Shown: one piece after another, positions 42,869 to 60,996 of the stretch
Layout: every line of letters starts with the position of its first letter
How positions within the stretch are numbered: the stretch's first letter is position 1
Source: an uncultured Lachnospiraceae bacterium
Lineage (GTDB): Bacteria; Bacillota; Clostridia; Lachnospirales; Lachnospiraceae
DNA length: 64,000 nt
Direction: 5' to 3'
NCBI GenBank assembly: GCA_946405625.1
Contig: CAMJHQ010000019.1
Coordinates: forward strand, 1 to 64,000
Program-made: the position numbers and the translations under genes
Notes under the pieces: generated by a model
Seen by the model: only the letters and a program-made list of their open reading frames with translations
What the model was told of the DNA's origin: nothing
Databases searched by the model: none

Positions 42869-44536
42869 TCATATTAATTTATTAAAAATCTTTTTCATAG
42901 TTTCAATTCCTATATCTTCATATATATCATATTCCTCTCTCCACATCTTCCATATCTTTGAGGCTTTTTCTTCATCTTTTTCAAGGGTATTACTTAATCG
43001 TATTAAAATATCATCATCTTCAGTCATTTCTTCAGGCTTAACTTTTTTTAATCTATACAATGGTGAAAGCATAGGTTCATACGAGCCTAATTCTGCATGT
43101 TTATAAAATCTTTTATGCTTCAGTGATGTCATTCTCCATTTATCAGTAAATGGGACTTTAAATATTATTGTAGGAAAACAGCAGTCATATAATGAGCTTG
43201 ATTCTAAAATCATTGCATGAAATGGCGGTCCGAAAGGACGACAATCAATTCGCACAATATCGCCGGTGCGATAAGGAACGCTTCGGTTCAAGTCGATTTC
43301 TCCACTAGATAATCTTCTTGAAGCCGGTATATAATACGTATTTCCATTATCTTGAGCTTTCGGACTCATTTTTTCAAACCAACAAATACGACCATCAAAT
43401 ATATAGTAATCACATTTATGTATCTTTTTATAATGTCCAAATTTAGAATTCTCTGGTTTCCAAGATTCTATGCGGTAATAATGATCATTTAGATCATCAT
43501 CCTCTTTTTCATTATTTATATAATTCATAATTTCCTTAATTGAGGAAAATAAACCGTTACCAAATGATTTTTCTACAAATGAATCAGTATCATACCATTC
43601 AGAAAAAAGATAGAATAAACCTTCGCCTTCATACTCGGTAAGATAATCATCCATCATATTTATAGCATCTCTTATTTCATCACGTGCATCCCACATATAT
43701 GACCATCCATCATCATATGTCCAGTCCACAAGATCTTTGATATTTTTTTTAATCTTTTTCCATTTTTCTTCTGTTTTCAATGATTTATATACATTATTAT
43801 ATATATTAAATTTCAGATTCCTTTTTTTCATCAAGAAATCAAATAGGGATTCTTTTTCTTTTAAAGCAATTGGAGCCTGACATATAATATCTGTTATGCC
43901 ATAACAATAAACATCTTGCTGATTTTTAGCATAATCTGATATATCATAATCCCCATAATCTGAAAACGGAACCAGATGCGCTATCATTTCATTTGAAAAA
44001 CCGCACCTATCCAAAACAAACCTTATATCATCCACTGTCCACTCGCATCTGTTGCCTCGGTATGCTTTTAAATCTTCAATTGATTTAATATCAATCCATT
44101 TATTCTCATTCAACAGATACACCCTGCTTTTTTTGCCTAATATAGTAAGATTCAAAAGATTTATAAATGTTCCAATGCTTTTACCATCCCATATTCCTAT
44201 TCCTTCATCAGCATCATGTGCCATCTGAAAATCCTTTTCAATTCTCATACTATAAGCAGTCCTTCGTTTACCATCAATTTGAAAATGCTTTTCTTCCCAG
44301 TTGCCAATATTATGGCGGGCTTTTGTTTTAGATCCTGAAACATAAACTTTGACATTTCTATACCCTGTAGAGTTTAGATACTTCTGAACTAGTTCATAAA
44401 TTCCAAAGCAATCACCAATAATAATATCTGCACTTTCTTTTATAATATTATCTATTGCCGATACAACATCATATGGGAGTTGATTATATAACGTTTTTTT
44501 ATTTATATTTTCAGTTCCGCAAATAAATATCTTCAT
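42869..44536 (-). CDS. SLOG-fold-like N terminus protein, unknown function
   Basis: About 555 residues. Residues 1-150 look like a Rossmann-type SLOG domain: MKIFICGTENINKKTL, then IIGDCFGIYELVQKYL, KVYVSGSK, and IGIWDGKSIGTFINLL. These match in position the GGA.GvD and W.G.S.GT signals of nucleotide- or NAD-ligand-binding SLOG proteins. The remaining 400 residues are unrecognised; a region around 420-510 (RTGDIVRIDCRPFGPPFHAM) looks like a beta-barrel. The same architecture recurs at 47748-48944. ATG 44536 is chosen for GGAGGAGG 4 nt upstream. It is the second gene of the leftmost operator-controlled unit. Confidence 0.7.
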   Translation of the reverse strand: MKIFICGTENINKKTLYNQLPYDVVSAIDNIIKESADIIIGDCFGIYELVQKYLNSTGYRNVKVYVSGSKTKARHNIGNWEEKHFQIDGKRRTAYSMRIEKDFQMAHDADEGIGIWDGKSIGTFINLLNLTILGKKSRVYLLNENKWIDIKSIEDLKAYRGNRCEWTVDDIRFVLDRCGFSNEMIAHLVPFSDYGDYDISDYAKNQQDVYCYGITDIICQAPIALKEKESLFDFLMKKRNLKFNIYNNVYKSLKTEEKWKKIKKNIKDLVDWTYDDGWSYMWDARDEIRDAINMMDDYLTEYEGEGLFYLFSEWYDTDSFVEKSFGNGLFSSIKEIMNYINNEKEDDDLNDHYYRIESWKPENSKFGHYKKIHKCDYYIFDGRICWFEKMSPKAQDNGNTYYIPASRRLSSGEIDLNRSVPYRTGDIVRIDCRPFGPPFHAMILESSSLYDCCFPTIIFKVPFTDKWRMTSLKHKRFYKHAELGSYEPMLSPLYRLKKVKPEEMTEDDDILIRLSNTLEKDEEKASKIWKMWREEYDIYEDIGIETMKKIFNKLI

Positions 44537-44645
44537 TAATCCTCCTCCATTTTTGTATTCTGCCACATACAGTTTTTTCACTAGTTTCTACTCATACAAG
44601 TCTCAAAATCATTCAAAGTATCTATAATCATACTTATAATAGTCT

Positions 44646-45755
44646 TTATTCTCGTATACGATTCTTAAACTCATATTCTATACCGCCTTCATAAGCAGCG
44701 TTAAATATTTCTTCAGCAAGAAAGTCAATATAATTACAAACATCTTCAATAGATATATCAATAGTAAAACTCGAAGATCCACTATTGTATATTTTGCCAT
44801 AACGTTCTGTACGGTGTTGTACTACTACATCAATACCGATTTTTTTCAAAGATAAATCATCATTATGCCCAAGATAGTTTACAATACAATAATGTAATCC
44901 ATTGGCAAATTGTCGAGCAGCCTCAAACTCCCAAGGTTTACAGCCTTCAATGTCTGTAGGTTTTTTATTTCGCATATCACCTATGTTTTCAATGAGTGTA
45001 ATGTCTTTTCGATACACATTGTCTTTCGTCACGCGTGGAATAATATACTCCATTGTATTTTTGTACAGATCCTTAAATCCATCATAATCAAAATAATTGT
45101 TTTCTAACTGTTCATATAATAAATACCAATAATACTCTAACTCTGTGAGACATTTATCCATATTTTCAAAAATAATATTTTCTAGATTTGGAGATTCTTC
45201 CTGTTCATAACATCCTATCATAGTGTACTTATCTTCAATTTTTATGAATAATCCTTCTTCGGTTATATCTAAAGCATACTCATATCCTCCCAAAACACTT
45301 TTATAATCCCCATTTCCAATAAGTATGATACTTGAACGCTTTGAAGCAAATGTCATTATGGCTTTAAGCATTTCCTGCATTTTAATTACATTTTCTGATA
45401 ATATTTCTACATCCTCTATAATAAGAACAATCCATCCACAAGTAGGCGGTAAGCTATCTATAATACTATAAAGATCTGATTTTTCATCAACCTCATGCTG
45501 ATAAAGTTCCCCAATATCAGAATAATAATTTCGCATATTACGATGAAAGTTTTTCGCCGAATAATGAGCAAGATACACTTCTCCAGGCATTTCCTGATCA
45601 ATGATATCAAACATCATCTTCTTGATTGTTGCATTAGTTAATTTTCGCTCATGGCTATTTACATATAATATATTCTGATGTTTAGGTCGTATATCTCCAT
45701 ATCTATTACACCAATTTTTTAAATATATATACATATCTTTATCAACAATCGACAC
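44646..45755 (-). CDS. AAA-like protein without a P-loop, unknown function
   Basis: A 369-residue protein with the pattern of an AAA+/STAND module. A Walker-B-like WIVLIIEDVEIL is near residue 110, and a sensor-1-like strand SSIILIGNGDY is near 140. At the place of Walker A the sequence is NILYVNSHERKLTNATIKK, with no G-K-T/S, so it may bind but not hydrolyse nucleotide, or may be only a scaffold. The C-terminal part (residues ~220-369) is unrecognised. The start is GTG 45755 with AAGGAG 9 nt before it. It is the first gene after the operator-promoter at 45831-45865. Confidence 0.6.
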   Translation of the reverse strand: MSIVDKDMYIYLKNWCNRYGDIRPKHQNILYVNSHERKLTNATIKKMMFDIIDQEMPGEVYLAHYSAKNFHRNMRNYYSDIGELYQHEVDEKSDLYSIIDSLPPTCGWIVLIIEDVEILSENVIKMQEMLKAIMTFASKRSSIILIGNGDYKSVLGGYEYALDITEEGLFIKIEDKYTMIGCYEQEESPNLENIIFENMDKCLTELEYYWYLLYEQLENNYFDYDGFKDLYKNTMEYIIPRVTKDNVYRKDITLIENIGDMRNKKPTDIEGCKPWEFEAARQFANGLHYCIVNYLGHNDDLSLKKIGIDVVVQHRTERYGKIYNSGSSSFTIDISIEDVCNYIDFLAEEIFNAAYEGGIEYEFKNRIRE

Positions 45756-45866: not shown

Positions 45867-45899
45867 AAAAAAGAGGAGAAGTCAATTCTACATCTCCTC
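45867..45899 (-). terminator. Terminator after the PRGRV-protein gene
   Basis: GAGGAGA (45899-45893, - strand) pairs with TCTCCTC, followed by TTTTTT. The stop codon of the gene lies in the loop. It ends the unit that began at the operator at 49377-49411, 2 nt before the next operator. Confidence 0.8.
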
Positions 45900-46223
45900 A
45901 TCAAGATAACAATGATAGTGCTTACTATGATCAATTTTTATTATTGGTTTTTCCGTCAACCCAAAAGCTTTTACAATATCTTTTATATAAGAATCATCAA
46001 CATGTGGACTCATATATATAATAGGCTTTCCCTTTCCCGTATAATCAACCCTTCCTCTTGGATAATAATCAAAAGGTTTATTACATCTTTTGGATTTTAT
46101 AGTCTCCCATAACTTTTTATGATTGTATGTTTTACCAGATTTAGATATTCCTTCTATATATTTCTCGTCAAACGGAAATGCCAGCATTTTATCATTGATA
46201 ATCCAAAAAACACCTCTTACCAT
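45888..46223 (-). CDS. Conserved hypothetical protein with PRGRV motif
   Basis: A 111-residue soluble protein. The pattern F-W-I-I-N-D-K-M...KSGKTYNHKKLW, then DYYPRGRVDYTGKGKPIIYMSPHVDD, looks like a conserved small family I have seen described only as hypothetical; FGL near the end recurs too. No function is known to me. It is the last gene of a six-gene unit, and its stop lies within the terminator stem-loop. The C-terminal segment HYHCYLDEEM could bind metal, but that is only a guess. Confidence 0.6.
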   Translation of the reverse strand: MVRGVFWIINDKMLAFPFDEKYIEGISKSGKTYNHKKLWETIKSKRCNKPFDYYPRGRVDYTGKGKPIIYMSPHVDDSYIKDIVKAFGLTEKPIIKIDHSKHYHCYLDEEM

Positions 46224-46249: not shown

Positions 46250-46567
46250 TTATACATATGTCCAGTCTAAATCATATAGCCTTTTATATGTGCTTCTTTG
46301 ATAAATTTCATTAGCAGGTGAATATCTTACTTTTCTTTGTGCAAATTTTCGTAATGTTTTTATATTGGTATTAATTCGATGTACTCCATATTTATATTCG
46401 TCAATGTTATAATCATAATTTAGATAATAACCCCTGCAACAACGATACTCACCATTCCGATACTTGATAATGCGGCTTCGCTTTTTCTTTTTGGTTTCTA
46501 TTCGTCGTAGGTTGTGTATCAGTTTACGTTTATTGATATCATATATTTCGCCCTTGACTTTAGACAT
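46250..46567 (-). CDS. Small basic protein, unknown
   Basis: About 105 residues, strongly basic (IETKKKKRSRIIKYRNGEYRCC-type stretch) with many Tyr. GAGGA 7 nt before the ATG at 46567 decides the start. The charge suggests binding to nucleic acid. There are two adjacent Cys but no recognisable zinc ribbon. The gene lies 19 nt after the phosphoesterase gene and 26 nt before the PRGRV-protein gene. Confidence 0.5.
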   Translation of the reverse strand: MSKVKGEIYDINKRKLIHNLRRIETKKKKRSRIIKYRNGEYRCCRGYYLNYDYNIDEYKYGVHRINTNIKTLRKFAQRKVRYSPANEIYQRSTYKRLYDLDWTYV

Positions 46568-46586
46568 AACACATTCCTCTTCTAAA

Positions 46587-47297
46587 TCAACATGCTGAAG
46601 AATAATACTCTTCTCCTGTTTCAAGACATATTACTGCTAATTTGCCACCCGGAATTCCACAACCACAGTCTATGGCTATATGCATATTCTCTTTATATAT
46701 ATAGCCTGGATTCGGATTATTTTTTATGTATTGAGTTGGTGTATGTCCCGTAACTACATATTTATCATCAAAATAACGAATACTATAATCAGTTGAATCC
46801 CAAACAAGGTTTTTTATAGAATAGTTTTCTATTTGTTTTTTCGGAGAATAATCTCCCAAACCAGCATGAACAAGAAAAAACTTCTTATCATTAACAATCA
46901 GTTCCTCATACATTGAAAAACTCAATATATACTCAATTATTTTGGCTTTCATTACAGAGTCCAATTGCTTGAACTCATTTACAGTTGTTTCACATCCATT
47001 CCTTTGCCAATCTATAAGATTACCTAACATTTCAGCATCAATAGAATCAGTATCTTTAAGATTTTTGCCGGAATTTAAAAAACGCAATCCATCTAATGCC
47101 ATAAGCTCATGATTACCAACCAAACAAATCACGTTAGACATTTCCATCAACTTTTGTAATGTCTTAATGGGGTGTGGACCACGATCTACGATATCTCCCA
47201 ATATGTATAAAGTATCTGTATCCTTTAATTGAATTTTTTCAATAAGTTCTATAAACTTGTCATATTCTCCGTGAATATCGCCCATCACGTAATTCAT
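46587..47297 (-). CDS. PP2A/ApaH-like metallophosphoesterase
   Basis: A 236-residue calcineurin-like phosphoesterase of the PrpA/ApaH type. All metal-binding motifs are present: GDIHGEYDKF (residue ~7), GDIVDRGPHPI (~34), GNHELMALDG (~61), then HAGLG and VTGHTPTQYI. Substrates of this group are phosphoproteins, diadenosine polyphosphates or other nucleotides. Within this island a nucleotide or RNA-end phosphate is plausible but unproven. It is fourth in the unit starting at the 49.4-kb operator. Confidence 0.88.
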   Translation of the reverse strand: MNYVMGDIHGEYDKFIELIEKIQLKDTDTLYILGDIVDRGPHPIKTLQKLMEMSNVICLVGNHELMALDGLRFLNSGKNLKDTDSIDAEMLGNLIDWQRNGCETTVNEFKQLDSVMKAKIIEYILSFSMYEELIVNDKKFFLVHAGLGDYSPKKQIENYSIKNLVWDSTDYSIRYFDDKYVVTGHTPTQYIKNNPNPGYIYKENMHIAIDCGCGIPGGKLAVICLETGEEYYSSAC

Positions 47298-47298: not shown

Positions 47299-47718
47299 TC
47301 ATTCTCCTATATTTCCACTAGCAATACAGTAGCCATATGATACATTATCCCAATAAATTTTCCCGGATAAATCGGAAACTGAAATACTTGCAGAACTTAC
47401 ATATGGGTGTGAAAGCAAGAAATCTACAATTATTTGATACCAATTTGTATCTATTGCAGCAATTCTGAATGTCAATTTATCATCATTCCATAGTCTAACC
47501 TTACACCAATCTCGATTATAAGAGTGTAATATAGAAGCTTTTGAATCATCTGAATGTGTAGCTTTCCAAACTCTGCAAATATCTTTTTCCTGCTCTGACC
47601 CATAACTTGAAACTATATCTACGATACTATCAAATTCAAATGATTCTGTAGGATGAGCATAAACGTCTATGCAGGCACCGGACTTATTTATTAACCAGGC
47701 TTTCCCAAATGAATCCAT
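47299..47718 (-). CDS. Hypothetical protein
   Basis: About 139 residues, no signal or membrane segment. It has alternating beta-strands with Trp/Tyr (KAWLINKSGACIDVYAHP, SGKIYWDNVSYGYCI). I do not recognise it. The start at 47718 (GGAG 9 nt before the ATG) is preferred to GTG 47751, which overlaps the preceding stop but has no ribosome site. It lies one base before the phosphoesterase gene. Confidence 0.55.
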   Translation of the reverse strand: MDSFGKAWLINKSGACIDVYAHPTESFEFDSIVDIVSSYGSEQEKDICRVWKATHSDDSKASILHSYNRDWCKVRLWNDDKLTFRIAAIDTNWYQIIVDFLLSHPYVSSASISVSDLSGKIYWDNVSYGYCIASGNIGE

Positions 47719-47747
47719 ACTTCTTATCTCCTTACATTGATTGCAAA

Positions 47748-48944
47748 TCACTCAACAACAGTATCTTCACATATGTAATTATCATTTACGCTGATGAACG
47801 ATGCCGGTTCAAACGGATCATGATCGTTGATATGACACTCTCTCATAAATTGAAATCCCTTCAATTCAGTATCATCCGTATAAAATGTTATACGATGGAC
47901 AAAATATACTATAGCGTCATCTTCTCTTTTCCTTTCCCACACTTCTATCTTTCCACCATTTGAAGTCATAGTCTCCAGATAGTATAAAGCTTCATCGATA
48001 TCTGCATACATACCAGCCGGAATGTATTTATATGTTCCTTTATATTCAACACATTCCCATAGATACATAACGATATCGTCATTACTTCCATCCATACCTT
48101 CTATCCATGAGACAGCAATATCAAAATCATTATTAGCATGTGTAAAAGAATGCTCATATGTATTCATGAGAACTTGTCTCAATTCATCTTTATTCCCATT
48201 ATTACATTTCCATTCAGAAACTTTTCTTATAAGTTCACAACAAATATCTTCTTTTTCAGAAAGCAGTTCGATTATTTTCTTTTTCTTTTTTATTGAAGCA
48301 TCAGCCTTGCAGATCATTCTTTTCAAGTCATTCTTGCATAGTTTCTCCCCATTATTCTTCAGTATAAGATTCAGCATCTCATCGAAGTTTTTCTCATATT
48401 TGAAAAGAACATCTATATCAACCACATCCCCATTAAATAAATCTGTGTCAATCTTGTCCTCATCATATCTTTCAGCCAATATGTATTCCTGTAAATCTTC
48501 AAGCTCTTTTATTTCAGTGATATCTCCTCTTTTGACGTTATATACTGAACACTTTTTACAATACCCAAGAAATGCAAGCATTCCGATAAACACATCTATA
48601 TCTGTCCCATCCCAGGCAAAGAAACCCTCGTCACATTTCTCAGCCATTAAACATTGAATTAATGGATCCAGACTGAATTCATGCTGCCTTATATATATCA
48701 TTCTATAAGGCCACTCCCCTATATTCACTCTTGGCCATTCTTCATACTCATCACTGTCTCTCATAGAAATAATCGTGACATTCCTATATTTTAAATCAGC
48801 CAGATACTTCTGAATCTCGAAATCTCCGTAATTATATTCAGACACAAAAATGTCTGATTCGATCCTAATATATTCATCTATCTTACGAGTTATTATGTTT
48901 TCACTGCTGCAGGACATCTGCACCCCATAACAAAATACTTTCAT
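47748..48944 (-). CDS. Second SLOG-like protein, unknown function
   Basis: About 398 residues. The N-terminal ~140 residues follow the same plan as the protein at 42869-44536: MKVFCYGVQMSCSSENI, DIFVSEYNYGDFEIQKYLADLKYRNV, and GFFAWDGTDIDVFIGML. The two are therefore paralogous domains. In place of the Gly-rich loop it has SEYNYGDFEI, so ligand binding may differ. The middle is helical and charged, with a Lys run, and the C terminus is unrecognised. ATG 48944 is chosen for GGAGAG 5 nt before it; it overlaps the end of the frameshifted SLOG gene by none. Confidence 0.65.
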   Translation of the reverse strand: MKVFCYGVQMSCSSENIITRKIDEYIRIESDIFVSEYNYGDFEIQKYLADLKYRNVTIISMRDSDEYEEWPRVNIGEWPYRMIYIRQHEFSLDPLIQCLMAEKCDEGFFAWDGTDIDVFIGMLAFLGYCKKCSVYNVKRGDITEIKELEDLQEYILAERYDEDKIDTDLFNGDVVDIDVLFKYEKNFDEMLNLILKNNGEKLCKNDLKRMICKADASIKKKKKIIELLSEKEDICCELIRKVSEWKCNNGNKDELRQVLMNTYEHSFTHANNDFDIAVSWIEGMDGSNDDIVMYLWECVEYKGTYKYIPAGMYADIDEALYYLETMTSNGGKIEVWERKREDDAIVYFVHRITFYTDDTELKGFQFMRECHINDHDPFEPASFISVNDNYICEDTVVE

Positions 48945-48961
48945 ACGTTCTCTCCAATCTA

Positions 48962-49325
48962 TCAGATATCGCAAATGTATGTTTTCACATTGTTCTTCTC
49001 AGCTAATTTAATCATGGATCCTGTTCCCTTGGATTTATAATCCCAGAAAGCTATCAACGCTCCATTTTCACCCACATATTCAGCCACTTCTTTATTTCTT
49101 ACAGGTCCTGCACTTCTTCCATATTTTTTCCAATTAGCATTAAATACTTTTAAAACAATCCATTTTTTCATTAGCATACTTTTCAGCCATTATATCTACG
49201 CCTGAAGCTCCACCTGATACTATTTCTGATATTTCAATTGCATTATTATGAATTATCTTTTCCAATTCACTTTTGAATAAGTCATAATCATTAAAGCCTC
49301 TTAATCCGGCAATTATCACTTTCAT
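48962..49325 (-). pseudogene. YspA/DUF2493-type SLOG protein, frameshifted
   Basis: Two frames together encode one ~120-residue SLOG-family protein. The first (from ATG 49325, with GGAAGGAG 7 nt upstream) gives MKVIIAGLRGFNDYDLF and VSGGASGVDIMAEKYA. The second gives VFNANWKKYGRSAGPVRNK and FWDYKSKGTGSMIKLAEK, the other half of the family signature. The join falls at a run of six A near 49160; five A would restore one frame. Either it is a recent pseudogene, a sequencing error, or frameshifting is used. It is the first gene of its unit. Confidence 0.8.
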
Positions 49326-49376
49326 CACCGGTCTCCTTCCTGATATTTGACACATGATTATTTGCTTCTGTATCAT

Positions 49377-49411
49377 ATTGTATACGGAGTTATGGGACAA
49401 ATATGTCACAT
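49377..49411 (-). promoter_or_regulatory. Island operator-promoter 2
   Basis: Dyad ATGTGACATATTTGTCCCAT (49411-49392, - strand) with TACAAT 9 nt later. It lies 67 nt before the SLOG start and inside the end of the upstream PTP-like gene. Confidence 0.8.
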
Positions 49412-49933
49412 TAGTATCTGCCAACGCACGTATTTCCCGGCATTTTTGTTTTTCTGTGCAGTTTTATAAGCCTCATCATTTATTCTCAATCTATCTGAAA
49501 CCGCTTCATCTGACATATCAATACCAAACTCCCTACAAAGTTCTCTGAAAACAAGATAATTTGGCGTATAATATGGATTCTTCCATACATCATCATCGCT
49601 TCTATTCGACATGAGCATCAACACAGCTGCACACCCTGTACTTTTCGAACCACCCTTTGAACAGCAAATATATAAATCAGTAATACATTCCGGAAGATTA
49701 CGGATAAACTTTATGATCATCCTGGCATGTTCTCGTGTAAATGCACCATATAGTTCTGTACTCTCAACATCCTGAATATCTACAACAAGTTTTCTTATCT
49801 TAATTCTATTTAATCCCGGCGTGGTTCGTGTAGTGAGGGTTATCATTGCACAATCCTCCAAAGGAATATCAAACACACTCTCTGATATTGCAGTTACTGC
49901 CAGAATATGGATCACATACTTTTTTATATACAT
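49406..49933 (-). CDS. PTP-like protein with C-x5-K active-site loop
   Basis: A 175-residue protein resembling the small dual-specificity-phosphatase-like family of Clostridia. Its conserved loop, normally C-D-A-G-x-S-R-S, reads YICCSKGGSKSTGCAAVLM here. The catalytic Arg is Lys, and the Asp after Cys is Ser. It is thus probably inactive or altered, perhaps a binding module. N-PHYxPN-like NPYYTPNYLVFRELCREFGI fits the family. The start 49933 covers the family N terminus; 49846 has the better ribosome site (GGAGG, 8 nt). It overlaps the small interrupted frame upstream. Confidence 0.65.
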   Translation of the reverse strand: MYIKKYVIHILAVTAISESVFDIPLEDCAMITLTTRTTPGLNRIKIRKLVVDIQDVESTELYGAFTREHARMIIKFIRNLPECITDLYICCSKGGSKSTGCAAVLMLMSNRSDDDVWKNPYYTPNYLVFRELCREFGIDMSDEAVSDRLRINDEAYKTAQKNKNAGKYVRWQILM

Positions 49934-50239: not shown

Positions 50240-50881
50240 CTAACTCTTATGCATAAAGTCACATGTTTTATTAATTTCTTCTTTAAGTATTCTCTCCCCA
50301 CATGTTTCTTTTGCTCTACTCCAATAGTAATAATCAAACATTATTCGATTAATCTTTAATCCTGATATAGAAATAATTGAATCAATTGCTTTCTGATAAT
50401 TCTCATATTCTCCTTCTTTATTCTCAAGCGTGCTCCAAGCTTTATATTTATCATAACCAGGCTTTTCATTAAAAAAATATTTATAGCATTCAAACACGAA
50501 CTTCATCATATAACTATCCATCGGTGCATCACATTTATTAAAATGTTTTGCAATCTTTGGATTGTCATAGTATTTGACATATATATATTTCATAGTCATA
50601 TTGATTAGCTTTTGAATCTTTCCGAATAAAAATGCATCAATCTTTTTATTGCTCTTATTATTCTCTTCAATTATTTTATTTACGGTCTCATCAAAACTCG
50701 GATTATTGTCACCATTTATTATGCTCTCTGCATATTCTTTCACAGCATTTTTGATTCCGCTAATATCTATCAAATTTTTCTTTTCACCTTCTTTTGATAC
50801 TCGATTCATCGCATCATTTACTGCCATCTCGTAGTAAAAATCAAATATAAAATCATCTATTATAATTCGTTTATTAACCAT
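50240..50881 (-). CDS. Hypothetical helical protein
   Basis: About 213 residues, predominantly charged helices with many Tyr and Asn. No known motif is recognised. It begins MVNKRIIIDDFIFDFYYEMA, and the C terminus has YYYWSRAKETCGERILKEEI. ATG 50881 is chosen because AGGAG is 8 nt upstream, while the ATG 6 nt earlier touches the ribosome site. It is the second gene of the unit that starts at the operator at 51.9 kb, 34 nt after its partner. Confidence 0.6.
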   Translation of the reverse strand: MVNKRIIIDDFIFDFYYEMAVNDAMNRVSKEGEKKNLIDISGIKNAVKEYAESIINGDNNPSFDETVNKIIEENNKSNKKIDAFLFGKIQKLINMTMKYIYVKYYDNPKIAKHFNKCDAPMDSYMMKFVFECYKYFFNEKPGYDKYKAWSTLENKEGEYENYQKAIDSIISISGLKINRIMFDYYYWSRAKETCGERILKEEINKTCDFMHKS

Positions 50882-50914
50882 ACCCATTTCTCCTTCTTTA
50901 CTTTTTATTATTCA

Positions 50915-52983: not shown

Positions 52984-53691
52984 TTACTGAATTTCTTTTT
53001 TGTAATGACCATATACCCATAATGCTCTATCTAACTCTCTTTCTATGTTATGATATCCCAAAACATGATCAAGCAAATATATATACTCTCCATACATGGC
53101 AAAAACCTTATCTTTTTCCTTTTTATCCGGTGCTGCACCCACAAAAACCTCATGAGGTTTCTTTTTCAAATACAAAGCCTTTACAGCCTTATGAGCAAAA
53201 TAATCATAAATAGGATATTCTTTATCACTCAAAAAAAACAATATCGTAATTAAATATACAGCTCCGACATTCTTTAGTTTTACTTGTTCTGAGATTTTCA
53301 ACAAACTATTGTAGTTTACTTTAAAGCTACCTTTTCCTTTTACTAGTGTCATTTTTTTAATCTCACTAATAAATTCATCAGCATTTTCTATCTTATGTCC
53401 CCTTCCGTTACGGACTTCACTAATTGAATTTGCATCCTTACATATAGCTTCATTTTTTTGTAGTCTTCCAGCTTTCCATAAAAAAACTCTCTTATCCAGA
53501 GGAATTGAATTATTTAGGACATTTTCTGCATATTCCTCGATAGCATATTGTGTCTTGTTTTTTAAAATAGTTCCTAGCACTTCTTTCTCTTTTTTGGTAT
53601 AGCTATCCTTAACAAAGTAAAACTGCTCATACGTTTCAATTAATGATTTTTTTTCAGCTTCATTCAAACTAAACACTTGTAAATTCCCCAT
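52984..53691 (-). CDS. Unrecognised family, paralogue of 50915-51817
   Basis: 235 residues. The C-terminal half is homologous to the 50915 protein (see GAVYLITILFFLSDKEYPIYDYF and LDRALWVYGH). The N-terminal ~70 residues are different and helical. No catalytic motif is recognised. The gene lies 123 nt after the WYL regulator gene without its own operator, so it is probably transcribed with it or from a separate weak promoter. It is followed directly by a remnant of the same family. Confidence 0.65.
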   Translation of the reverse strand: MGNLQVFSLNEAEKKSLIETYEQFYFVKDSYTKKEKEVLGTILKNKTQYAIEEYAENVLNNSIPLDKRVFLWKAGRLQKNEAICKDANSISEVRNGRGHKIENADEFISEIKKMTLVKGKGSFKVNYNSLLKISEQVKLKNVGAVYLITILFFLSDKEYPIYDYFAHKAVKALYLKKKPHEVFVGAAPDKKEKDKVFAMYGEYIYLLDHVLGYHNIERELDRALWVYGHYKKEIQ

Positions 53692-53814: not shown

Positions 53815-54906
53815 TTATTTCTCATACGCCTCCACGGCTTTCTTCAGTTGCTCTACTATTTTCTTCCTTAATCTTTCCGGTCTGAGTACCATTACATCCG
53901 GTGCAAAGTTTAGTGCGAACTGCTCCATGGCACGTTCATTTGTGGTTGTTGATACGGTTACCCCTGTTTCATCTTTATCTGAAAACCTGACATCTGTTCC
54001 GAACATATCTATCACATCACCGATCATCGGAAGAACTACTCTGAAAGATACCATCACATCATCACTTGAATACATATACGGATGCTTCTTCATATAGTCA
54101 GCCAGATTAAGTTCTGCTTTATTTGACCATTTCAATTTCTTAAACGGTTTTATAGGTTCATTGGTAATCTCAATGTCAGAAATGCGGTCCAAACGATAAT
54201 TGGAGATATCATCATATTTGTCATAATTACATATGAGATAATACTTTCCCTCCCTTGCAGCCATCTGATAAGGTGAAACCAGATATATTCTTTCACTTCC
54301 GTCTTCACGTTTTTTGACATGCATTTTCTTATCGGTATCATATTCCAGATATTTAAATGTTATTTTCCTTTTCTTGCTAATTGATTCATCTATAAGTCCA
54401 ACATTAAGAAATAGAGCCTTATTATTTGATTTATCATCTGGAAGCGTTGAAATGTATTTAACCCTAGAACGGAAATGTTCGCTAGACAATCCTTCAATCT
54501 TCTCAACCAGATCTTTACATTCGCTATATGGTATATGTCTTGAAAAGAGCAAACCGTCTATCATGAGCCGTAGTTCATCATCAGTAAAATCTCTCACAAG
54601 ATAATAGTCTGACCAGATATAGTTATCTTCCTTGACTACCTCTCCGGTATCGGGATCTATTATTTTTTTCCCGGATTTATCCTTTACAGGCATCTTACGG
54701 ATTGTTTCTTTGTATTCGATTTCATAACCTAAATCCATAAGATTCATAATATTTCTACGGATACTTCTTCTGTTAGCCTCAATATCATATTGCTTATCAA
54801 GTATATCTATGATTTCATTTTGACTAAGTCGATGATTCTCATCGGAGTATCGCTTTAAGACTTCGAGAATATTCATCATTATTTTTTTCGGCGGCTTCCC
54901 AGTCAT
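53815..54906 (-). CDS. WYL-domain transcriptional regulator
   Basis: A 363-residue PafC/BrxR/CapW-type regulator. The winged helix-turn-helix lies at residues ~5-65 (LSQNEIIDILDKQY, RRSIRRNIMNLMDLG). The WYL domain at ~165-245 has YLVSPYQMAAREGKYYLICNY and NYRLDRISDIEI, and a WCX extension runs to the end (ERAMEQFALNFAPDVMVL). WYL domains sense ligands, often nucleic-acid-like, and such regulators control many defence loci. It is the only obvious DNA-binding regulator inside the operator regulon, and it lies 3 nt after the nuclease gene under operator 5, so it would be autoregulated. Confidence 0.92.
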   Translation of the reverse strand: MTGKPPKKIMMNILEVLKRYSDENHRLSQNEIIDILDKQYDIEANRRSIRRNIMNLMDLGYEIEYKETIRKMPVKDKSGKKIIDPDTGEVVKEDNYIWSDYYLVRDFTDDELRLMIDGLLFSRHIPYSECKDLVEKIEGLSSEHFRSRVKYISTLPDDKSNNKALFLNVGLIDESISKKRKITFKYLEYDTDKKMHVKKREDGSERIYLVSPYQMAAREGKYYLICNYDKYDDISNYRLDRISDIEITNEPIKPFKKLKWSNKAELNLADYMKKHPYMYSSDDVMVSFRVVLPMIGDVIDMFGTDVRFSDKDETGVTVSTTTNERAMEQFALNFAPDVMVLRPERLRKKIVEQLKKAVEAYEK

Positions 54907-54909: not shown

Positions 54910-56394
54910 TTATTCCTCCTTTACTGCCTCTCTAAGTTTCTTCAGAACCTTAACCATTGCAAATGTGTCCAAACCACAATACTTGAGTAGATTCTTTCTT
55001 GTAATTTCTACCTCTTCAGGTGACATCTTTTGCATATTTACAAATGCAGACATTGCCTCCCCACCATGATGTATCCCTTCCAGGTTATGATAATCAAGTT
55101 CCGGATCATCAGGGAATAGTGCCGGAAGTACATATTTAATGGAATAACTTCCCTTCATAGCTTCGCTATAGTAATACTGATTTGAAAAAGGAATCATCAA
55201 ATCATGTATGTTTTCTCTGATATTAAGCAAATGATCAGACAAATCATCATATAATTCTGCGAGACTTCTTATAACACTTTTTTCAAACCCCATATTAAAA
55301 GCTAAAACGCATGTATTTTCGGGGATATCTTTTACTAAGCTCTCAGCTAATAATCTGCGAGGATCAGTTCCTGCTTCGGCTAAAAATTCTAAATGTTCGA
55401 GTGTTCCATCTTCCTTTTCAACATGTATTGAATATTGAAATGGTACCTTGGCATAAGGATGCATATTGTCAAAATCCGGAATGACTGGCGAATATGTTTC
55501 AAAATCCAGATGATAGAGCGGATAAGATAGTGTATCCAGGAAATCATTAATTTTCTCTTTTTCTATATGATCCGGTTTATGATAATAAGCTGTATCAACC
55601 TGCCTCATCTGTTTATCAGCCAGCTTAGGGTGCTCTCTTATGATATCTTCAAAACTTATTATTCCTTCCCTATATATTTTATATTTCTGACTTATTTTCA
55701 GATTCTTTATATCAAATACAGATTCATCAGGAAGGCTTCGTCTGCAATATTTGTAATATGCACATTTCTCCGGTTTATCGCAGCATATATCAATATCTTT
55801 TTCCGGTTCTTCTTCAAACTGAAGATACTCTCTTATCTCAAGTATCTTCTGCTCTACAAAGTTCTGCTTTTCTTTAACTGTATCTGTACAGTTTTCCATG
55901 ACAAATAAGCCCTGCAGGTCGATATCACCCTGTCGGACATATTGGTTATTTATATGCATAATGTAAACTTTATTTACTGGAATTCCTGATTTGAAAAGAA
56001 CGTAATACTGATAGCTTACGTCATAGATATGTTCTTCCTTAACCTCTGTAGAGCTTTTTACTTCGATCAGATCATAGCCTGACTCAGTCTTGCGAAGAAT
56101 GTCAACAGAACAAAAGCAGCCATCATAAAGAAAGCTTGCTTCTGCTATACATTTTGAACCATCTTCAAGAAGCCGTACGGTTTCATCTACCATAGCTTCT
56201 TTACTTGGATGAAATTGTACAAGCGAATACTCTCCGAAATATCCCCTTGCCAGCTCGCCGACCATTATACCGACTTCTATAACATCAGTTAAATCTTCAT
56301 TAGATGCCATCTCCGGTTTATGCTCGTCCAACCAAAGAATCTTCGGACATCTTACACCCTTGCAATACCTTGATTTGCTAAGTTCACCCCTCAT
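54910..56394 (-). CDS. Cas4/RecB-like nuclease fused to DEDD exonuclease domain (DUF2779, TM0106-like)
   Basis: A 494-residue two-nuclease protein. Residues ~80-225 form a PD-(D/E)XK domain with Asp98 in CSVDILR and E-x-K in LIEVKSS (111-113), ringed by cysteines (C11/C16 and C204, C211, C217) that fit a Cas4-type iron-sulfur site. Residues ~290-494 form a DUF2779 exonuclease-like domain with HLDFET (Asp297, Glu299), AFNMGFEKSV and YCGLDTFA, a DEDDy-like pattern. No Cas1/Cas2 or CRISPR array is present, so it is not an adaptation gene here. It heads the unit with the WYL gene. Confidence 0.85.
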   Translation of the reverse strand: MRGELSKSRYCKGVRCPKILWLDEHKPEMASNEDLTDVIEVGIMVGELARGYFGEYSLVQFHPSKEAMVDETVRLLEDGSKCIAEASFLYDGCFCSVDILRKTESGYDLIEVKSSTEVKEEHIYDVSYQYYVLFKSGIPVNKVYIMHINNQYVRQGDIDLQGLFVMENCTDTVKEKQNFVEQKILEIREYLQFEEEPEKDIDICCDKPEKCAYYKYCRRSLPDESVFDIKNLKISQKYKIYREGIISFEDIIREHPKLADKQMRQVDTAYYHKPDHIEKEKINDFLDTLSYPLYHLDFETYSPVIPDFDNMHPYAKVPFQYSIHVEKEDGTLEHLEFLAEAGTDPRRLLAESLVKDIPENTCVLAFNMGFEKSVIRSLAELYDDLSDHLLNIRENIHDLMIPFSNQYYYSEAMKGSYSIKYVLPALFPDDPELDYHNLEGIHHGGEAMSAFVNMQKMSPEEVEITRKNLLKYCGLDTFAMVKVLKKLREAVKEE

Positions 56395-56502: not shown

Positions 56503-57264
56503 TTACAAACAATCAATAAAATGCTTCGTTGTTTTAAAATATTCTAATGAACCGCAGACAATATTTCCGCAATTATGATCTTCTATTTCTATATTTACAT
56601 TATAAACATCTCTAAGATAAGAATCTTCTTCATAAAAATCCTCATTATACATCATGATGCTGTAATCTACCATCCGAGTTGATTCCTGTATTTCTGATAA
56701 AACCAATACATTCACATTTTTCATTTCGGCAATTTTATTAAGTGCATCTAGAATCTCTATATATTCCTTTTCGTTCATATCCGAATGGCCAATCTTATCA
56801 ATGATTATCAACTGAGGCTCCTGTTCGAGATCATCAAATAATTTTAATATTTCATCCATATTAGGTATATTCTGGTGATGTATATAAACTGGGGATTCCC
56901 TAAAACATTGAAGTATTTCCTCATATTCACTGTTTTCTATTTCACAGGTTAGTGGATCTATTCCTTCGATACAGATGTGATAAATAATATCGAGTATTAC
57001 AGCAAAAGGTTTTTTATAGAAGGATATGTATAAAACCGGTATTTTATTATTGATAGCATTATAAATCAGCGTATCAAAAGCGAACGTTCTGATTCCTATT
57101 CCACCATCTGATGAAATAAGAATCAGCTCGCCTTTCCTGAATCCACCGTAACGTTCATCTATCAATTTATAACCAGTCTTTATCATGTCGCACTCATCAT
57201 ATATTATGCTCCGTGCTTTGCTGATTTCTTTATCAAACTTACGTCGTAGAATACTCTTATCCAC
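56503..57264 (-). CDS. DnaB/KaiC-like protein with degenerate Walker A
   Basis: A 253-residue RecA-fold protein resembling the C-terminal domain of replicative DnaB helicase: TGYKLIDERYGGFRKGELILI opens the domain. Where DnaB has G-K-T the loop reads SSDGGIGIRTFAFDTLIYNA (Lys to Arg with an extra residue). Walker B is PQLIIIDKIGHSD. A DnaB-like ENVLVLSEIQ-type strand (NVLVLSEIQES) follows. It is too short for a helicase and probably a regulator or adaptor. The start is GTG and overlaps the AAA gene by 8 nt, so the two are coupled. Confidence 0.7.
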   Translation of the reverse strand: MDKSILRRKFDKEISKARSIIYDECDMIKTGYKLIDERYGGFRKGELILISSDGGIGIRTFAFDTLIYNAINNKIPVLYISFYKKPFAVILDIIYHICIEGIDPLTCEIENSEYEEILQCFRESPVYIHHQNIPNMDEILKLFDDLEQEPQLIIIDKIGHSDMNEKEYIEILDALNKIAEMKNVNVLVLSEIQESTRMVDYSIMMYNEDFYEEDSYLRDVYNVNIEIEDHNCGNIVCGSLEYFKTTKHFIDCL

Positions 57265-59263
57265 AGAATCCCATCCTCACTATATTGTTTGCTTTCTTCT
57301 TCGGAAGTTCTATATCTTCTGCAGTAAATGTCAGGATATCTTCTCTTGTAATATTATCGATTTCTTTTGTAAGTAGCCTGCTGGACTGAGCCATTCTTGC
57401 CCTTTCTATGACATTACGCACATATCGACCATTACCAAAATCAGGTTCATTAATAGCAATGGAAAAACATTCCCTGAGACGGTCTATTGCATCCTCAGTA
57501 AAATGCATTCCTTTTTTATCTGCAATAACTTCAGCAATCTTGCAAAGCTCTTCAACATCATAGTCTTCAAATGATACCTGAAAAGCAATTCTGGAACGAA
57601 GTCCGGGATTCTTATCAAGGAATGCTTCCATCTTGTCAGGATATCCTGCAAAGATTACAATTACCTCATCCCTTCGATTCTCCATTTCCTGAACGATAGT
57701 ATTAATTGCTTCATCACCATATAATCCATCTCTGTCATCCACAAGAGAATATGCTTCATCTATAAAGAGAACTCCACCTTTTGCATCTTCAAATCTTGCC
57801 TTAACTGTCGGAGCTGTCCATCCCACATATTTTCCAACCAGATCCTGACGACCAACCTCCACAAGCTTTCCTGTAGATAAAACGCCATTATCTTTCATAA
57901 TATCTGTAAATAGTCTTGCTACCGTAGTCTTTGCCGTTCCAGGATTTCCAGTAAAGACCATATGCATAGATGGAGCATCCTGGTTAATTCCCTTATCCCT
58001 AAAAAGCTTTTGTGCCTTGTAATAGTCCAGAGCCTGATTGATAACTTTCTTTGCTTCAGTAAGTCCAATCATTTTCTCCAGATCATCATATGCAGAACCC
58101 TTAGGTGACTCATCTACTTTTTTCTTTGTCACAGATTCAATACATTGATACAGTGGATATATCGATCTTTTTAGTTTACCCCTAAACCATTCATGAAAAT
58201 CAGTATCCAGATCTCTTAACAGATAACTGCTGTCCGGTTTTATCTGGCCCAGAAGTTGCTTATCAGGTCTCACATGATAAGCCTTTGCCTTTGTTGATAA
58301 TACCTTTTTTGCATCTTCAGCTGAGATAAACTCTTCTTTAAGCTCTATAATACTAACATTTCCCAGATACTCAAAAAACCATCCCTTAATCTTTGTACAT
58401 TCCTTAGGAAAACAATAGATTGTAAGTACATCGTTGCTATACTTATTCATTAAGTTTGAAAGTTTCTCAATTGAATCTCGTACTCCGCTGGCTTTTGATC
58501 CTTCAACTTCTTCCTCACAACGAAATGTAATAACAATTGCCCCACCTGAGCTGGTCTTATATAAAGACTCTAACTCTTCCATCTCATTATTAAGTCTATA
58601 TCCCCTGTCAGCTTCAATTTCATACAAAGAAACTCTTTTGTTGCTTATCCTGTAATTATCATATAACGCCTGAAGAACTATTTTTGAAGTTGACTCTTTT
58701 ATATCATCATCATCGGATTCAATAATATAATGAACAGGATGCCCTGTTATTCTTTTTATATTCTTCCCACCATAGATACGATCTAATTCCGGTATAAGAG
58801 TATTACGTATATATAACTCTTCAGCCCTTTTATATATTGTTTGTTTTTCTGAATCGTCTAAAATTTCTTCTTTAAACAATCGGTTGTTTCGATAATTAAT
58901 AGAACTTAATCCTAATGAATTATATAGATTAATTTTACGTATAAAATTATTGTACTCCGATTCACCTATCATAAAGTCGATATCTCTAAATGTTATTTCT
59001 TCATACTGAATATTCGATAAAGAAATCCCCAATGATACAAGATATTTGTTCAGCTTTGCTTTTAAGCCATCTATACAATTAAGAAATGCACCTATCGTAA
59101 TTTCTTCAGCAGAAATCTCTTCTACGAAAAAGAATCCATCACTCCAAAAATCTTGATTTCTTGTTTTTGTTTGTATCTTTCTTTCTACTTTTCTATCAAC
59201 TTCCGAACATATCTGGATCGTATTTTTATCTTTGGGTTTCCCTTCTATTTTGATATAAAACAT
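57257..59263 (-). CDS. SpoVK/CbbX-type AAA ATPase with large N terminus
   Basis: A 668-residue protein. The C-terminal AAA+ domain (about 385-650) has Walker A FTGNPGTAKTTVARLF (439-446), VGRQDLVGKYVGWTAP pore-loop region, Walker B GGVLFIDEAYSL and the sensor/arginine segment NPGLRSRIAFQ. This is the CbxX/CfqX family of hexameric remodelers. Residues ~150-330 (TGHPVHYIIESDDDDIKES..., SGGAIVITFRCEEEV) look like a second, degenerate AAA module. The first 140 residues are unrecognised. It is coupled to the DnaB-like gene and is first in its unit. Confidence 0.88.
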   Translation of the reverse strand: MFYIKIEGKPKDKNTIQICSEVDRKVERKIQTKTRNQDFWSDGFFFVEEISAEEITIGAFLNCIDGLKAKLNKYLVSLGISLSNIQYEEITFRDIDFMIGESEYNNFIRKINLYNSLGLSSINYRNNRLFKEEILDDSEKQTIYKRAEELYIRNTLIPELDRIYGGKNIKRITGHPVHYIIESDDDDIKESTSKIVLQALYDNYRISNKRVSLYEIEADRGYRLNNEMEELESLYKTSSGGAIVITFRCEEEVEGSKASGVRDSIEKLSNLMNKYSNDVLTIYCFPKECTKIKGWFFEYLGNVSIIELKEEFISAEDAKKVLSTKAKAYHVRPDKQLLGQIKPDSSYLLRDLDTDFHEWFRGKLKRSIYPLYQCIESVTKKKVDESPKGSAYDDLEKMIGLTEAKKVINQALDYYKAQKLFRDKGINQDAPSMHMVFTGNPGTAKTTVARLFTDIMKDNGVLSTGKLVEVGRQDLVGKYVGWTAPTVKARFEDAKGGVLFIDEAYSLVDDRDGLYGDEAINTIVQEMENRRDEVIVIFAGYPDKMEAFLDKNPGLRSRIAFQVSFEDYDVEELCKIAEVIADKKGMHFTEDAIDRLRECFSIAINEPDFGNGRYVRNVIERARMAQSSRLLTKEIDNITREDILTFTAEDIELPKKKANNIVRMGFCG

Positions 59264-59312: not shown

Positions 59313-59347
59313 ATAATATACGGATAGATGGGATGAAATTGTCTCAT
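59313..59347 (-). promoter_or_regulatory. Island operator-promoter 6
   Basis: Dyad ATGAGACAATTTCATCCCAT (59347-59328, - strand) with TATTAT 9 nt later. It precedes the AAA ATPase gene and overlaps the end of the RtcB gene. Confidence 0.8.
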
Positions 59348-60447
59348 CTATCTGATGCTTTAAAATTATATATTGGTTTAAGTACCTCTATTACATCTAC
59401 AGATTCATGTATCACATCAATGATGTTTTCCAATGATTTGTATGCCATAGGTGCTTCATCTATAGTTCTATTACTCACAGAGGTTGTATAAATCCCCTTC
59501 ATAGAATTTTGATACTCTTCTAATGTTAGCGCCTGCTTTGCTTCTTTTCTTGACATGATACGTCCGGCTCCATGTGGTGCAGAATAATTCCATTCAGGAT
59601 TACCTTTTCCTGTTGCGAGTACACTTCCATCTCTCATATTAATCGGAATTAATACCTTTTCGCCTTTATGTGCTGCAATAGCACCCTTACGGAGTATTCT
59701 CTCTTTCGTATCAATATAATTATGTATCGTATGAAATGATTCTCCTGCTGTAAAACCGGTTCTTTTCAATAATATTTCCGCTATCTTCTCTCGATTTTTC
59801 CTTGCAAAATGCTGACATATTTTTACATCATGCATATAGTCTTCTAAATAAGTTCCATAAAGCCAGCAGAGATCATCCGGAATATCATATTCTATATAAT
59901 TTCTATTTATTTCTATTGCAAGATTCTGATAATACTCTGCAACCTGCTTTCCAAGATTCCTGCTACCCGAGTGAATTACTAAGTAATTAGTTCCATCGGA
60001 TGACTGATCTATTTCAATAAAATGATTTCCGCCACCTAATGTCCCTATAGATCTTTCGATTTTTCTTGAATCATTCAATTCTACAAAACATCTCAGTTCC
60101 GTTAAATCAAATCTTTCCTGTCTGCTATCCCAGATATTTCTTCCTGAAGGAATATAATGAGCCGCATTATCAAACTTTTCCAGATTTATAAGTTCTTTAC
60201 CTAAATCAACGGTATACATGCCGCATCCAATATCTACTCCTACTATATTAGGAACAACTTTATCTGTGATGGTCATCGTGGTTCCAATGGTACAACCTCT
60301 ACCATAATGAACATCCGGCATGATACGTACCTTAGAACCTTCCGTAAATTCATAATCACACATACGTCTTATTTGCTCTATTGCACTCTCATCACATACT
60401 GTCGCATAACATATCGCTGTACATTTTTCACCTTTTATCTCAAACAT
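59344..60447 (-). CDS. rtcB: RtcB-family RNA ligase
   Basis: A 367-residue GTP-dependent ligase that seals RNA 2',3'-cyclic phosphate (3'-P) ends to 5'-OH ends. The Mn-binding and guanylation residues are present: VDIGCGM (Asp72, Cys75), GGGNHFIEI (His142), HSGSRNLG and the guanylated His292 in APHGAGRIMSR. It is shorter than E. coli RtcB (408) but similar to the RtcB2-type bacterial proteins. No RtcA, RtcR or archease gene is near. Its start overlaps the HAD gene, indicating co-translation. It should repair RNAs cut by ribotoxins such as anticodon nucleases. Confidence 0.94.
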   Translation of the reverse strand: MFEIKGEKCTAICYATVCDESAIEQIRRMCDYEFTEGSKVRIMPDVHYGRGCTIGTTMTITDKVVPNIVGVDIGCGMYTVDLGKELINLEKFDNAAHYIPSGRNIWDSRQERFDLTELRCFVELNDSRKIERSIGTLGGGNHFIEIDQSSDGTNYLVIHSGSRNLGKQVAEYYQNLAIEINRNYIEYDIPDDLCWLYGTYLEDYMHDVKICQHFARKNREKIAEILLKRTGFTAGESFHTIHNYIDTKERILRKGAIAAHKGEKVLIPINMRDGSVLATGKGNPEWNYSAPHGAGRIMSRKEAKQALTLEEYQNSMKGIYTTSVSNRTIDEAPMAYKSLENIIDVIHESVDVIEVLKPIYNFKASDR

Positions 60448-60937
60448 TGTTATCCTTCCTTTCCGTATTCAATATATTAATTGCCTTCTCTACATCGGAA
60501 TCTGATAATCCAATTCTGTAATCTGTCAATACCAGATTCTTCCTGATTTCATCATCAAAATCTGTAAATGTATGATCATCTATAACAACATACGCTTCTA
60601 CATTCTGAACCCTTTCAAGAAATTTATGGATTCCCTTTCCCCTATCTTCAAAATATGTATCGTACACATGATCATCATAGGTTTTAGAAGTTATTTTAAG
60701 ACCATGCTTTTTTAACTTACGATTCAGGTATTTAGCATCCTCAGAACAGCAGAAATCAAATTCCTCCCATCCAATCTTCCAATCACTTGTGAGAATAATC
60801 CTGGTATCAGTCTCTTCAACAATTTGTGCCAGCTTAGTTACCAGCTTATCGTCAATCCCCATACATCCACTTGGAGCAGAAGCTTTGGTATTTTCATAAT
60901 TCAAAACTCCATCAATATCTAAAAATATAAGTTTCAT
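60440..60937 (-). CDS. HAD-family phosphatase, RNA-repair-associated type
   Basis: About 165 residues. The HAD motif I is FLDIDGVLN (D-x-D), motif II is the Thr-Ser in IILTSDWK, and motif IV lies in VVIDDHTFTDFDDE. It resembles the HAD domain found in Swiss-army-knife RNA-repair proteins, which would remove 3' phosphates or process ends before ligation. That role is inferred from family resemblance and the overlap with rtcB. ATG 60937 has AGGGTGAG upstream; GTG 60946 is also in frame. First gene of its unit. Confidence 0.8.
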   Translation of the reverse strand: MKLIFLDIDGVLNYENTKASAPSGCMGIDDKLVTKLAQIVEETDTRIILTSDWKIGWEEFDFCCSEDAKYLNRKLKKHGLKITSKTYDDHVYDTYFEDRGKGIHKFLERVQNVEAYVVIDDHTFTDFDDEIRKNLVLTDYRIGLSDSDVEKAINILNTERKDNNV

Positions 60938-60996
60938 ATCACTCACCCTATCACTGAATACACATACTATTTGTTTTACACATAAACTCTGATATC

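Follow-up and report, generated by a model that had tools for sequence, protein, structure and literature searches.

The genes at positions 42869-60946 of a 64,000-nucleotide stretch of DNA from an uncultured Lachnospiraceae bacterium (hereafter the window) raise the question of what joins proteins of such different predicted activities. An initial annotation of this DNA had placed them in one regulon under a WYL regulator and had proposed an undescribed RNA-repair and nucleotide-signalling system of stress or defence. The window covers nearly the entire contig (64,228 bp) of a draft genome of 3.3 Mb. All of the genes were found where that annotation had placed them, most with the domain claimed when scanned against Pfam. 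Our analysis indicates that they belong to a recurring and modular family of mobile islands, found mainly in Clostridia, in which a WYL regulator is followed by an exchangeable gene that most often resembles a helix-hairpin-helix (HhH) DNA glycosylase. Neither the boundaries of the element, nor its three HhH-glycosylase-like genes, nor the second copy in the same genome had been recognised in that annotation. Protein families without an established name are referred to here by handles.

The gene set has the signature of a mobile island at a tRNA-Leu gene

At the left end of the island a tRNA-Leu(CAA) gene (41063-41147, plus strand), the integration target, adjoins a tyrosine integrase gene (41222-42526; Pfam Phage_integrase, 9.6e-18), as located with ARAGORN and Pfam; this and all other protein-coding genes of the window described below lie on the minus strand. 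The last 21 bases of the tRNA gene and one further base form the left copy of a 22-bp attachment-site-like direct repeat (41127-41148, plus strand), of which an exact copy is present at 62234-62255 (plus strand). The two copies are spaced 21,107 bp apart, and about 3e-5 such matches would be expected by chance. A GCCCG/CGGGC hairpin with a T-run lies 3' of the right repeat and may be the original terminator of the tRNA-Leu gene. Because a tRNA-Leu gene, an integrase and an exact 22-bp repeat at the far end are found together, we conclude that the gene set is in all likelihood a mobile genomic island inserted at tRNA-Leu, beyond chance clustering. The integrative element is 21.1 kb long and its GC content is 33.4%, compared with 37.5% leftward. 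All genes of the initial annotation lie between the repeats. Pfam scans of the 22 open reading frames (ORFs) of the element gave no match to capsid, terminase or relaxase families. No empty tRNA-Leu site was found: an exact-pattern search of 27 genomes matched only the window's own genome, and the gene on the right flank is present in 3 of 41 genomes including this one, with about 40% identity elsewhere. Just inside the right repeat there is a zeta-toxin-like kinase gene (61201-61848; Pfam 3e-7) overlapped by a small ORF (61772-61975) that has no Pfam match and is a possible antitoxin by position only; the pair (61201-61975) may stabilise the element.

Recurrence of the island across Clostridia

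One genome per species was scanned with an alignment of five WYL regulators of this kind, and the best 80 of 358 relatives were used as loci. With profile models we compared these 80 loci (1.26 Mb, many of them ending at contig ends) with 27 control stretches (0.51 Mb) from WYL-bearing genomes; 40 controls had been requested, and the 27 that could be obtained include a stretch of 426 bases and another of 7 kb. By record title the loci come mostly from Lachnospiraceae, Oscillospiraceae/Ruminococcaceae and other Clostridia, with some from Eggerthellaceae and Coriobacteria, and three metagenome-assembled loci (L078, L085 and L133) are labelled as Bacteroidota-type. The initial annotation had suggested searching for co-occurrence of the genes in other genomes, and a real recurring set emerged. 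The number of loci carrying each family, with no control positive unless stated, was 39 for the glycosylase-like family A3, 31 for g570/g408, 24 for the AAA protein, 22 for f504, 21 for the Cas4-DEDD nuclease, 20 for the widened glycosylase-like family A2, 19 each for RtcB and an FtsH-like protein, 17 each for g111 and the PP2A-like phosphoesterase, 16 for the PTP-like protein, 15 for SLOG, 13 each for PHP-polymerase-like (PolIII-alpha/PHP-like) and DnaB-like proteins (one control each), 9 for UDG-like proteins, 7 each for NADAR and HAD, 4 for g369, 3 for ADP-ribosylglycohydrolase (ARG, or ARH) and 2 for Macro; these counts exclude the window and its second copy. Glycosylase-like genes taken together occur in 60 of the 80 loci and in none of the 27 controls (Fisher 6e-13). 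When HhH-glycosylase-like, Macro and NADAR proteins are combined with UDG-like proteins, ARH and one class recognized by motif only, 63 of the 80 loci are covered, again against 0 of 27 controls.

The same genome contains a second, largely syntenic copy of the island on contig C35, where no integrase was seen. Its order is PP2A-like, HAD (77% identical to the window copy), AAA (61%), Cas4-DEDD (66%), WYL (87%), two g235-like genes and f504, and then DnaB-like, DnaA-like, a g150-g215 fusion, g124, g570, g369, g111, RtcB (67%) and a YpsA-type SLOG gene. The DnaA-like gene (L008 16403-17518; Bac_DnaA 4e-56, with a DnaA C-terminal domain) adjoins the DnaB-like gene. The large unknown family f504 (e.g. 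L008 13811-15325) has 38 proteins in 23 loci including C35, a count in which the window and C35 both serve as loci, and shares with g570 a C-terminal 'PF.RGDI' region (hhalign 97%).

The recurrence counts bear on the explanation favoured by the initial annotation, namely an RNA-repair stress island in which ribotoxins or abortive systems would cut tRNA or rRNA, the WYL protein would sense the RNA ends, HAD-RtcB or KptA would repair them and the other genes would assist. The pairing of RtcB (59344-60447; Pfam 1.7e-61, PHROG 1075 9.7e-129) with an end-processing-like phosphatase was confirmed, since the latter (60440-60946) matches HAD_SAK_2 (1.1e-25), described in Pfam as 'HAD domain in Swiss Army Knife RNA repair proteins', and overlaps rtcB by 8 bp. 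RtcB, KptA or HAD occurs in 26 of the 80 loci and in none of the controls, KptA being present in four loci by clustering and in three by Pfam, and a WYL sensor of cyclic-ended RNA has been proposed (in section 3.8 and related passages of PMC9503650). Conversely, 54 of the 80 loci lack all three, many loci being truncated at the end of a contig, and the commonest proteins behind the WYL gene are unlike RNA-repair enzymes. RtcB was also rejected as the defining gene of the system: among 299 genomes of the family it is found in 76 at E 1e-40, as against 20 genomes (23 places) for WYL at E 1e-30, and at these thresholds it lies within 20 kb of WYL only in the window's own genome. Occurrence of the genes in unrelated contexts, which the initial annotation had named as grounds for abandoning its proposal, was thus found in part, for rtcB. 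Because RNA-repair genes are present in only 26 of 80 loci and rtcB is common elsewhere, the title of that annotation overstates RNA repair, and we consider it unlikely that this activity is the core of the island. Its broader RNA and nicotinamide adenine dinucleotide (NAD) theme is plausible, with KptA, NADAR and Macro in relatives and RNA repair as an accessory. A faecal record titled 'Bacteriophage sp.' (MT835545) encodes an RtcB 66% identical to that of the window, but does not point to carriage of the system by phages, because the fetched stretch holds no other island family.

An exchangeable slot behind the WYL regulator

In the window, the WYL regulator that forms the core of the module (53815-54906; Pfam WYL 1.8e-11, as claimed for it) is followed directly downstream, after 123 bp, by g235 (52984-53691). 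We defined the slot as a same-strand gene within 300 bp behind WYL, and divided the regulators at 45% identity to the window WYL. A second sample, of 392 genomes of the order (42 with a WYL match), was pooled with the first to give 130 WYL genes; 17 near-identical ones were merged, leaving 113, and 7 at contig ends were unscored, leaving 106, among which records of the first sample may still be repeated in the second, as the 95% WYL identity used for merging takes out only near-repeats. The slot is occupied by A2 (11), A3 (25), Macro (2) or NADAR (1) in 39 of the 69 WYLs that are at least 45% identical, and in none of the 37 more distant ones. With UDG-like proteins and two motif-only classes added, the counts become 47/69 and 1/37. 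The motif-only classes (HhH_3 and HhH_4) were recognized by eye, have no hhalign match to A2 or A3 and stand outside the strict count; ten members of the UDG-like class were scanned with Pfam, and one (L132) scored above the UDG cut-off, six scored below it and three had no UDG match.

Along the WYL tree, slot proteins switch from one kind to another at least 28 times, compared with 44.9 times in shuffles, and the kinds are therefore clustered on the tree yet frequently exchanged; within a well-supported group of seven rows that includes the window WYL, the slot holds A3 (3), Macro (2) or A2 (2).

In a further explanation, the island is a general hotspot where unrelated conflict genes pile up beside WYL and do not act jointly. 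Gene turnover between loci is high, a recombinase and GmrSD-type restriction genes are nearby, and it is hard to see what the DnaB-, DnaA- and PolIII-like paralogues would do together. Simple accumulation would however fit poorly with the tight spacing (a gap of 80 bp or less in 35 of 36 WYL-HhH pairs, 15 of which overlap when the longest ORFs are taken), with the near absence of the families from controls, and with two copies in one genome in which HAD, AAA, Cas4, WYL and g235 have the same order. We therefore give the hotspot explanation little credence, about as little as RNA repair as the core.

Among the 299 family genomes, all seven WYL places at E <1e-98 (two of them in the window's own genome) have A2 or A3 within about 3 kb, a count that is not fully independent, as WYL loci had served to define the families and G130:C61 is possibly the same as L118. 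Judging from these comparisons, the constant part across Clostridia appears to be a WYL regulator of a narrow clade, and its most constant partners the HhH-glycosylase-like families, which the initial annotation had left among its unknown ones. In our opinion the strongest hint to function is that, next to a near-constant regulator, unrelated proteins with N-glycosidic or ADP-ribose bonds as their likely targets replace one another.

Likeness of the slot proteins to DNA glycosylases

In their models the two commonest slot families look like HhH-GPD DNA glycosylases, with middling scores. For A2, represented in the window by g235 and g300 (50915-51817), HhH glycosylases make up the top 35 of 35 VIA rows. 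The spacing from the hairpin Gly to the invariant Asp, D163 in g235, is 20 in 16 of 16 proteins, the Gly itself being present in 15, and the same spacing in proteins encoded by the window's own genome is 20 for EndoIII and 21 for OGG. The best row for A3, represented by g215 (50240-50887), is AGOG, also with middling scores. A Lys and an Asp, 28-48 residues apart, are invariant in 37 of 37 A3 proteins and may correspond to the catalytic Lys and Asp of Pa-AGOG. In sequence searches, the A2 and A3 profiles found nothing significant in the PDB, and the AGOG Pfam family had no match in the window's own genome or in 14 controls. We treat A2 and A3 as separate families because no profile match was found between them. 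Pfam gave no UDG match for g235, g300 or g215, and UDG-like proteins are present in some relatives only; g300 has only sub-threshold Pfam matches (Recombinase, DUF7833). On the strength of the models, g235, g300 and g215 are HhH-glycosylase-like and probable DNA-base-removing proteins.

Other genes of the island

Upstream of the WYL gene, and separated from it by 3 bp, is a fusion of a Cas4-like domain and a DUF2779 (DEDD-like, UU173-type) nuclease (54910-56394; DUF2779 7e-46, Cas4 3.5e-5), in agreement with the earlier assignment. Likewise borne out were the DnaB_C/KaiC-like ATPase (56503-57264; Pfam 4.6e-9) and the AAA+ remodeler that overlaps it by 8 bp (57257-59263; Pfam AAA and AAA_lid_6), which has a SpoVK/CbbX-type C-terminus, an unknown N-terminus and an NCBIfam spore_V_K match below the cut-off. 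The AAA protein was tried as an anchor and rejected: its relatives are scattered (21 of the 299 genomes at E 1e-60), many match the SpoVK-type part only, and 3 of 15 fetched AAA loci have a full WYL relative, a fourth having a short weak one. On a Lachnospira eligens megaplasmid the order is WYL-hypothetical-AAA, and the gene behind WYL matches no slot model; Selenomonas pSRC1 has AAA-metallophosphoesterase-hypothetical-DUF2779 with a distant WYL nearby.

Between g235 and g300 lies the ADP-ribosylglycohydrolase gene (51952-52866; Pfam 3.1e-31), whose product had been called active-looking and indeed carries 'FTDDS' and 'GGDCDT', which we take to be active-site motifs. The protein earlier described as degenerate and PTP-like (49406-49933), the family profile of which matches dual-specificity phosphatases, has CX5K in the window copy and CX5R in the other 14 of 15 aligned relatives. 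The PP2A-like phosphoesterase was also confirmed as a calcineurin/PP2A-like, NinI-like metallophosphoesterase (46587-47297; Pfam 3e-17, PHROG 246 1.1e-45). One of the three SLOG-like proteins that had been proposed was upheld by Pfam (YAcAr, 6.9e-12); its gene is split over two frames (48962-49424), with a first piece at 49140-49424 and, after the frame shift, a second at 48962-49177, which reflects either decay of the gene or an error made in sequencing the draft contig. For the other two, g570 (42869-44581) and its family member g408 (47748-48974), the likeness to SLOG is weak and confined to the N-termini (pairwise hhalign E 8e-4, probability 25, with matching register), and a full-length profile had no match; the C-terminal 'GDIVxIDCRPFGP' domain of g570 is related to f504.

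The remaining genes encode g369 (44646-45755), an unknown conserved family 54% identical to its C35 copy; g124 (46250-46624), unknown and 69% identical to its C35 copy; g150 (47299-47751), a small domain that in the C35 version is fused to a g215-type protein; and g111 (45888-46223; family A8), a small protein with conserved W, H and YYPRGRV residues in the alignment. The A8 family is highly conserved ('SGxTYNHKxLW...YYPRGRV...SxHYxCxxD') and is possibly an enzyme; its profile found no significant relative in the PDB.

Proposed function of the island

We propose a WYL-gated, modular conflict or damage-response island that would act on modified or ADP-ribosylated bases and repair RNA, and judge this to be as probable as its opposite. 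The WYL domain would sense a nucleic-acid or ADP-ribose-type ligand arising from phage attack or genotoxic stress and switch the cassettes on. Sensing of an RNA- or NAD-derived signal, as in the initial annotation, is an inference that agrees with published predictions for WYL proteins (parts of PMC9503650). The glycosylase-like and ADP-ribose enzymes would then remove modified or ADP-ribosylated bases, whether these are in the DNA of an invader, the target of Brig proteins, or in host nucleic acid that has been damaged; the nuclease, AAA and DnaB group would process nucleic acid, HAD-RtcB would reseal cut RNA so that the host survives, and the phosphatases and SLOG-like proteins would handle nucleotide by-products. 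A more specific and more tentative version, to which we assign clearly less weight, is WYL-gated base-excision immunity, in which a regulator clade of Clostridia with an interchangeable slot (HhH-GPD-like, AGOG-like, UDG-like, NADAR or Macro) would attack phage DNA whose bases are non-canonical or ADP-ribosylated, and linked RtcB/KptA/HAD and exonuclease modules would keep harm to the host in check.

Many of the same parts could instead serve counter-ADP-ribosylation centred on ARG. Here phage ADP-ribosyltransferases would modify host macromolecules, released ADP-ribose or nucleosides would act on a WYL repressor, and ARG, the phosphatases, Macro and NADAR would strip the adducts, with AAA as a chaperone and the HhH-like proteins as further erasers of base-linked ADP-ribose. 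Four parts predicted in section 3.8 of PMC9503650 (WYL, ARG, PTP-like and calcineurin-like proteins) are all in the window, and Macro and NADAR occupy the slot in relatives. The PTP-like protein of the window, however, lacks the catalytic Arg, the set predicted there is from actinobacteria, planctomycetes and proteobacteria among others, and any ADP-ribose eraser is found in only 12 of the 80 loci (ARG in 3), compared with 56 of 80 for HhH-like proteins. Because ARG is present in 3 of 80 loci, we see in the window more than a further example of a published ARG-centred system, and we regard this alternative as improbable, if somewhat less so than RNA repair as the core or a mere hotspot.

Several observations weigh against the WYL-gated conflict or damage-response island that we favour. 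Both its RNA-repair genes and ARG are in a minority of loci, other genes occupy 30 of the 69 slots, and 8 of 16 A3 places in the 299 family genomes are not within 10 kb of WYL. The window copy may be partly decaying, because its PTP-like protein is degenerate and its SLOG gene is split. Finally, the claim of one regulon was not sustained, as the run of genes is interrupted by several gaps, and when 26 intergenic stretches were searched crudely for an operator, no dyad or 9-mer was common to them.

Comparison with known systems

The nearest published counterpart is the set of operons predicted in section 3.8 of PMC9503650 (Viruses 2022), which combine a WYL or Nudix regulator with ARG, rhodanese/PTP-type and calcineurin-like phosphatases, Macro, NADAR and exchangeable parts, and for whose WYL regulators sensing of ADP-ribose or cyclic ends is predicted. 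The island shares with them WYL, ADP-ribosylglycohydrolase, both types of phosphatase, the Macro and NADAR options, a constant core with exchangeable parts and conflict-type evolution. It differs in that ARG is rare rather than the core of the neighbourhood, the commonest WYL partner is HhH-glycosylase-like, AAA+, Cas4-DEDD, SLOG-like and RtcB/KptA/HAD proteins are added, the hosts are mainly Clostridia and the example in the window is a mobile element integrated at a tRNA gene.

A Brig1 homologue and Brig3 genes adjoin predicted ADP-ribosyl glycohydrolases (parts of PMC11078745 and PMC13160076), so that there, as here, a glycosylase-type protein stands beside such an enzyme in conflict islands, and some slot proteins in relatives of the island are UDG-like. 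Brig1 and Brig3 belong to the UDG superfamily, whereas g235, g300 and g215 had no UDG match, are HhH-like by sequence and models, and lie near WYL. A text search of the main texts of both articles found neither WYL nor helix-hairpin-helix.

Swiss Army Knife HAD proteins were reportedly described by Burroughs and Aravind in 2016. The combination of RtcB, an HAD of the end-processing type and, close by, a regulator of a type that senses nucleic acid recalls both these and the RNA-repair operons of Rtc/RtcB under CARF (RtcR) control (PMC7790460). Unlike in the latter, Pfam scans of the 22 ORFs of the element matched neither RtcA nor RtcR, WYL replaces CARF, and RNA repair is one accessory module. 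The WYL domain of PafBC is switched by single-stranded DNA (PMC11804915), as DriD, a WYL regulator of DNA damage, is linked to single-stranded DNA (PMC12340889); the island resembles these in having WYL near probable base-excision, exonuclease and replication-type genes, but theirs are chromosomal damage responses and here WYL is inside a mobile island.

What appears to be new is a glycosylase-like slot added to predicted nucleotide or ADP-ribose conflict systems. No WYL with an HhH-glycosylase slot was recognised in searches of the open-licence PMC literature; parts of the RNA-repair set may be covered by Burroughs and Aravind 2016. The island family brings predicted ADP-ribose and RNA-repair conflict operons together with DNA-glycosylase immunity, which has been shown by experiment, in a single module that recurs, can move and is hosted by common gut and rumen Clostridia. 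Two large families look like DNA glycosylases although Pfam gives their members in the window no match above the cut-off. That the same regulator heads swappable kits suggests a kind of microbial self-defence, or of damage repair, that has yet to be described. A single WYL clade also predicts where further slot enzymes would be found, and if these excise phage or ADP-ribosylated bases, gene order beside WYL could become a discovery tool for base-modifying activities. Should base-excision immunity prove true, the HhH fold would join the UDG fold of the Brig proteins among those that have been drawn into glycosylase immunity, and the whole kit would travel as a small integrative element.

Viral contigs and neighbouring genes

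PADLOC matched 164 families for the WYL neighbours (140 of a pool of 399) and 38 for the controls (136 of 310), which suggests that the surroundings of WYL loci are defence-rich, the counts being of families and hence giving no rate. Searches of g235 against plasmids and of g215 against phages gave no match. A3 is present in eight IMG/VR loci and A2 in one; among the neighbours on viral contigs, identified by BLAST or by eye, are a PTP-family gene in L138 and Cas4-DEDD in L144. By the same means, A3 was seen near cytosine-methylase-like and restriction/endonuclease-like genes on the viral contigs L137 and L143, with a Vsr-like gene also present in L143, and in L137 a SLOG gene as the next one after A3. 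At L198 2727-6845, a WYL that belongs to this broad group but is more distant directly adjoins a gene that by eye is Cas9-like.

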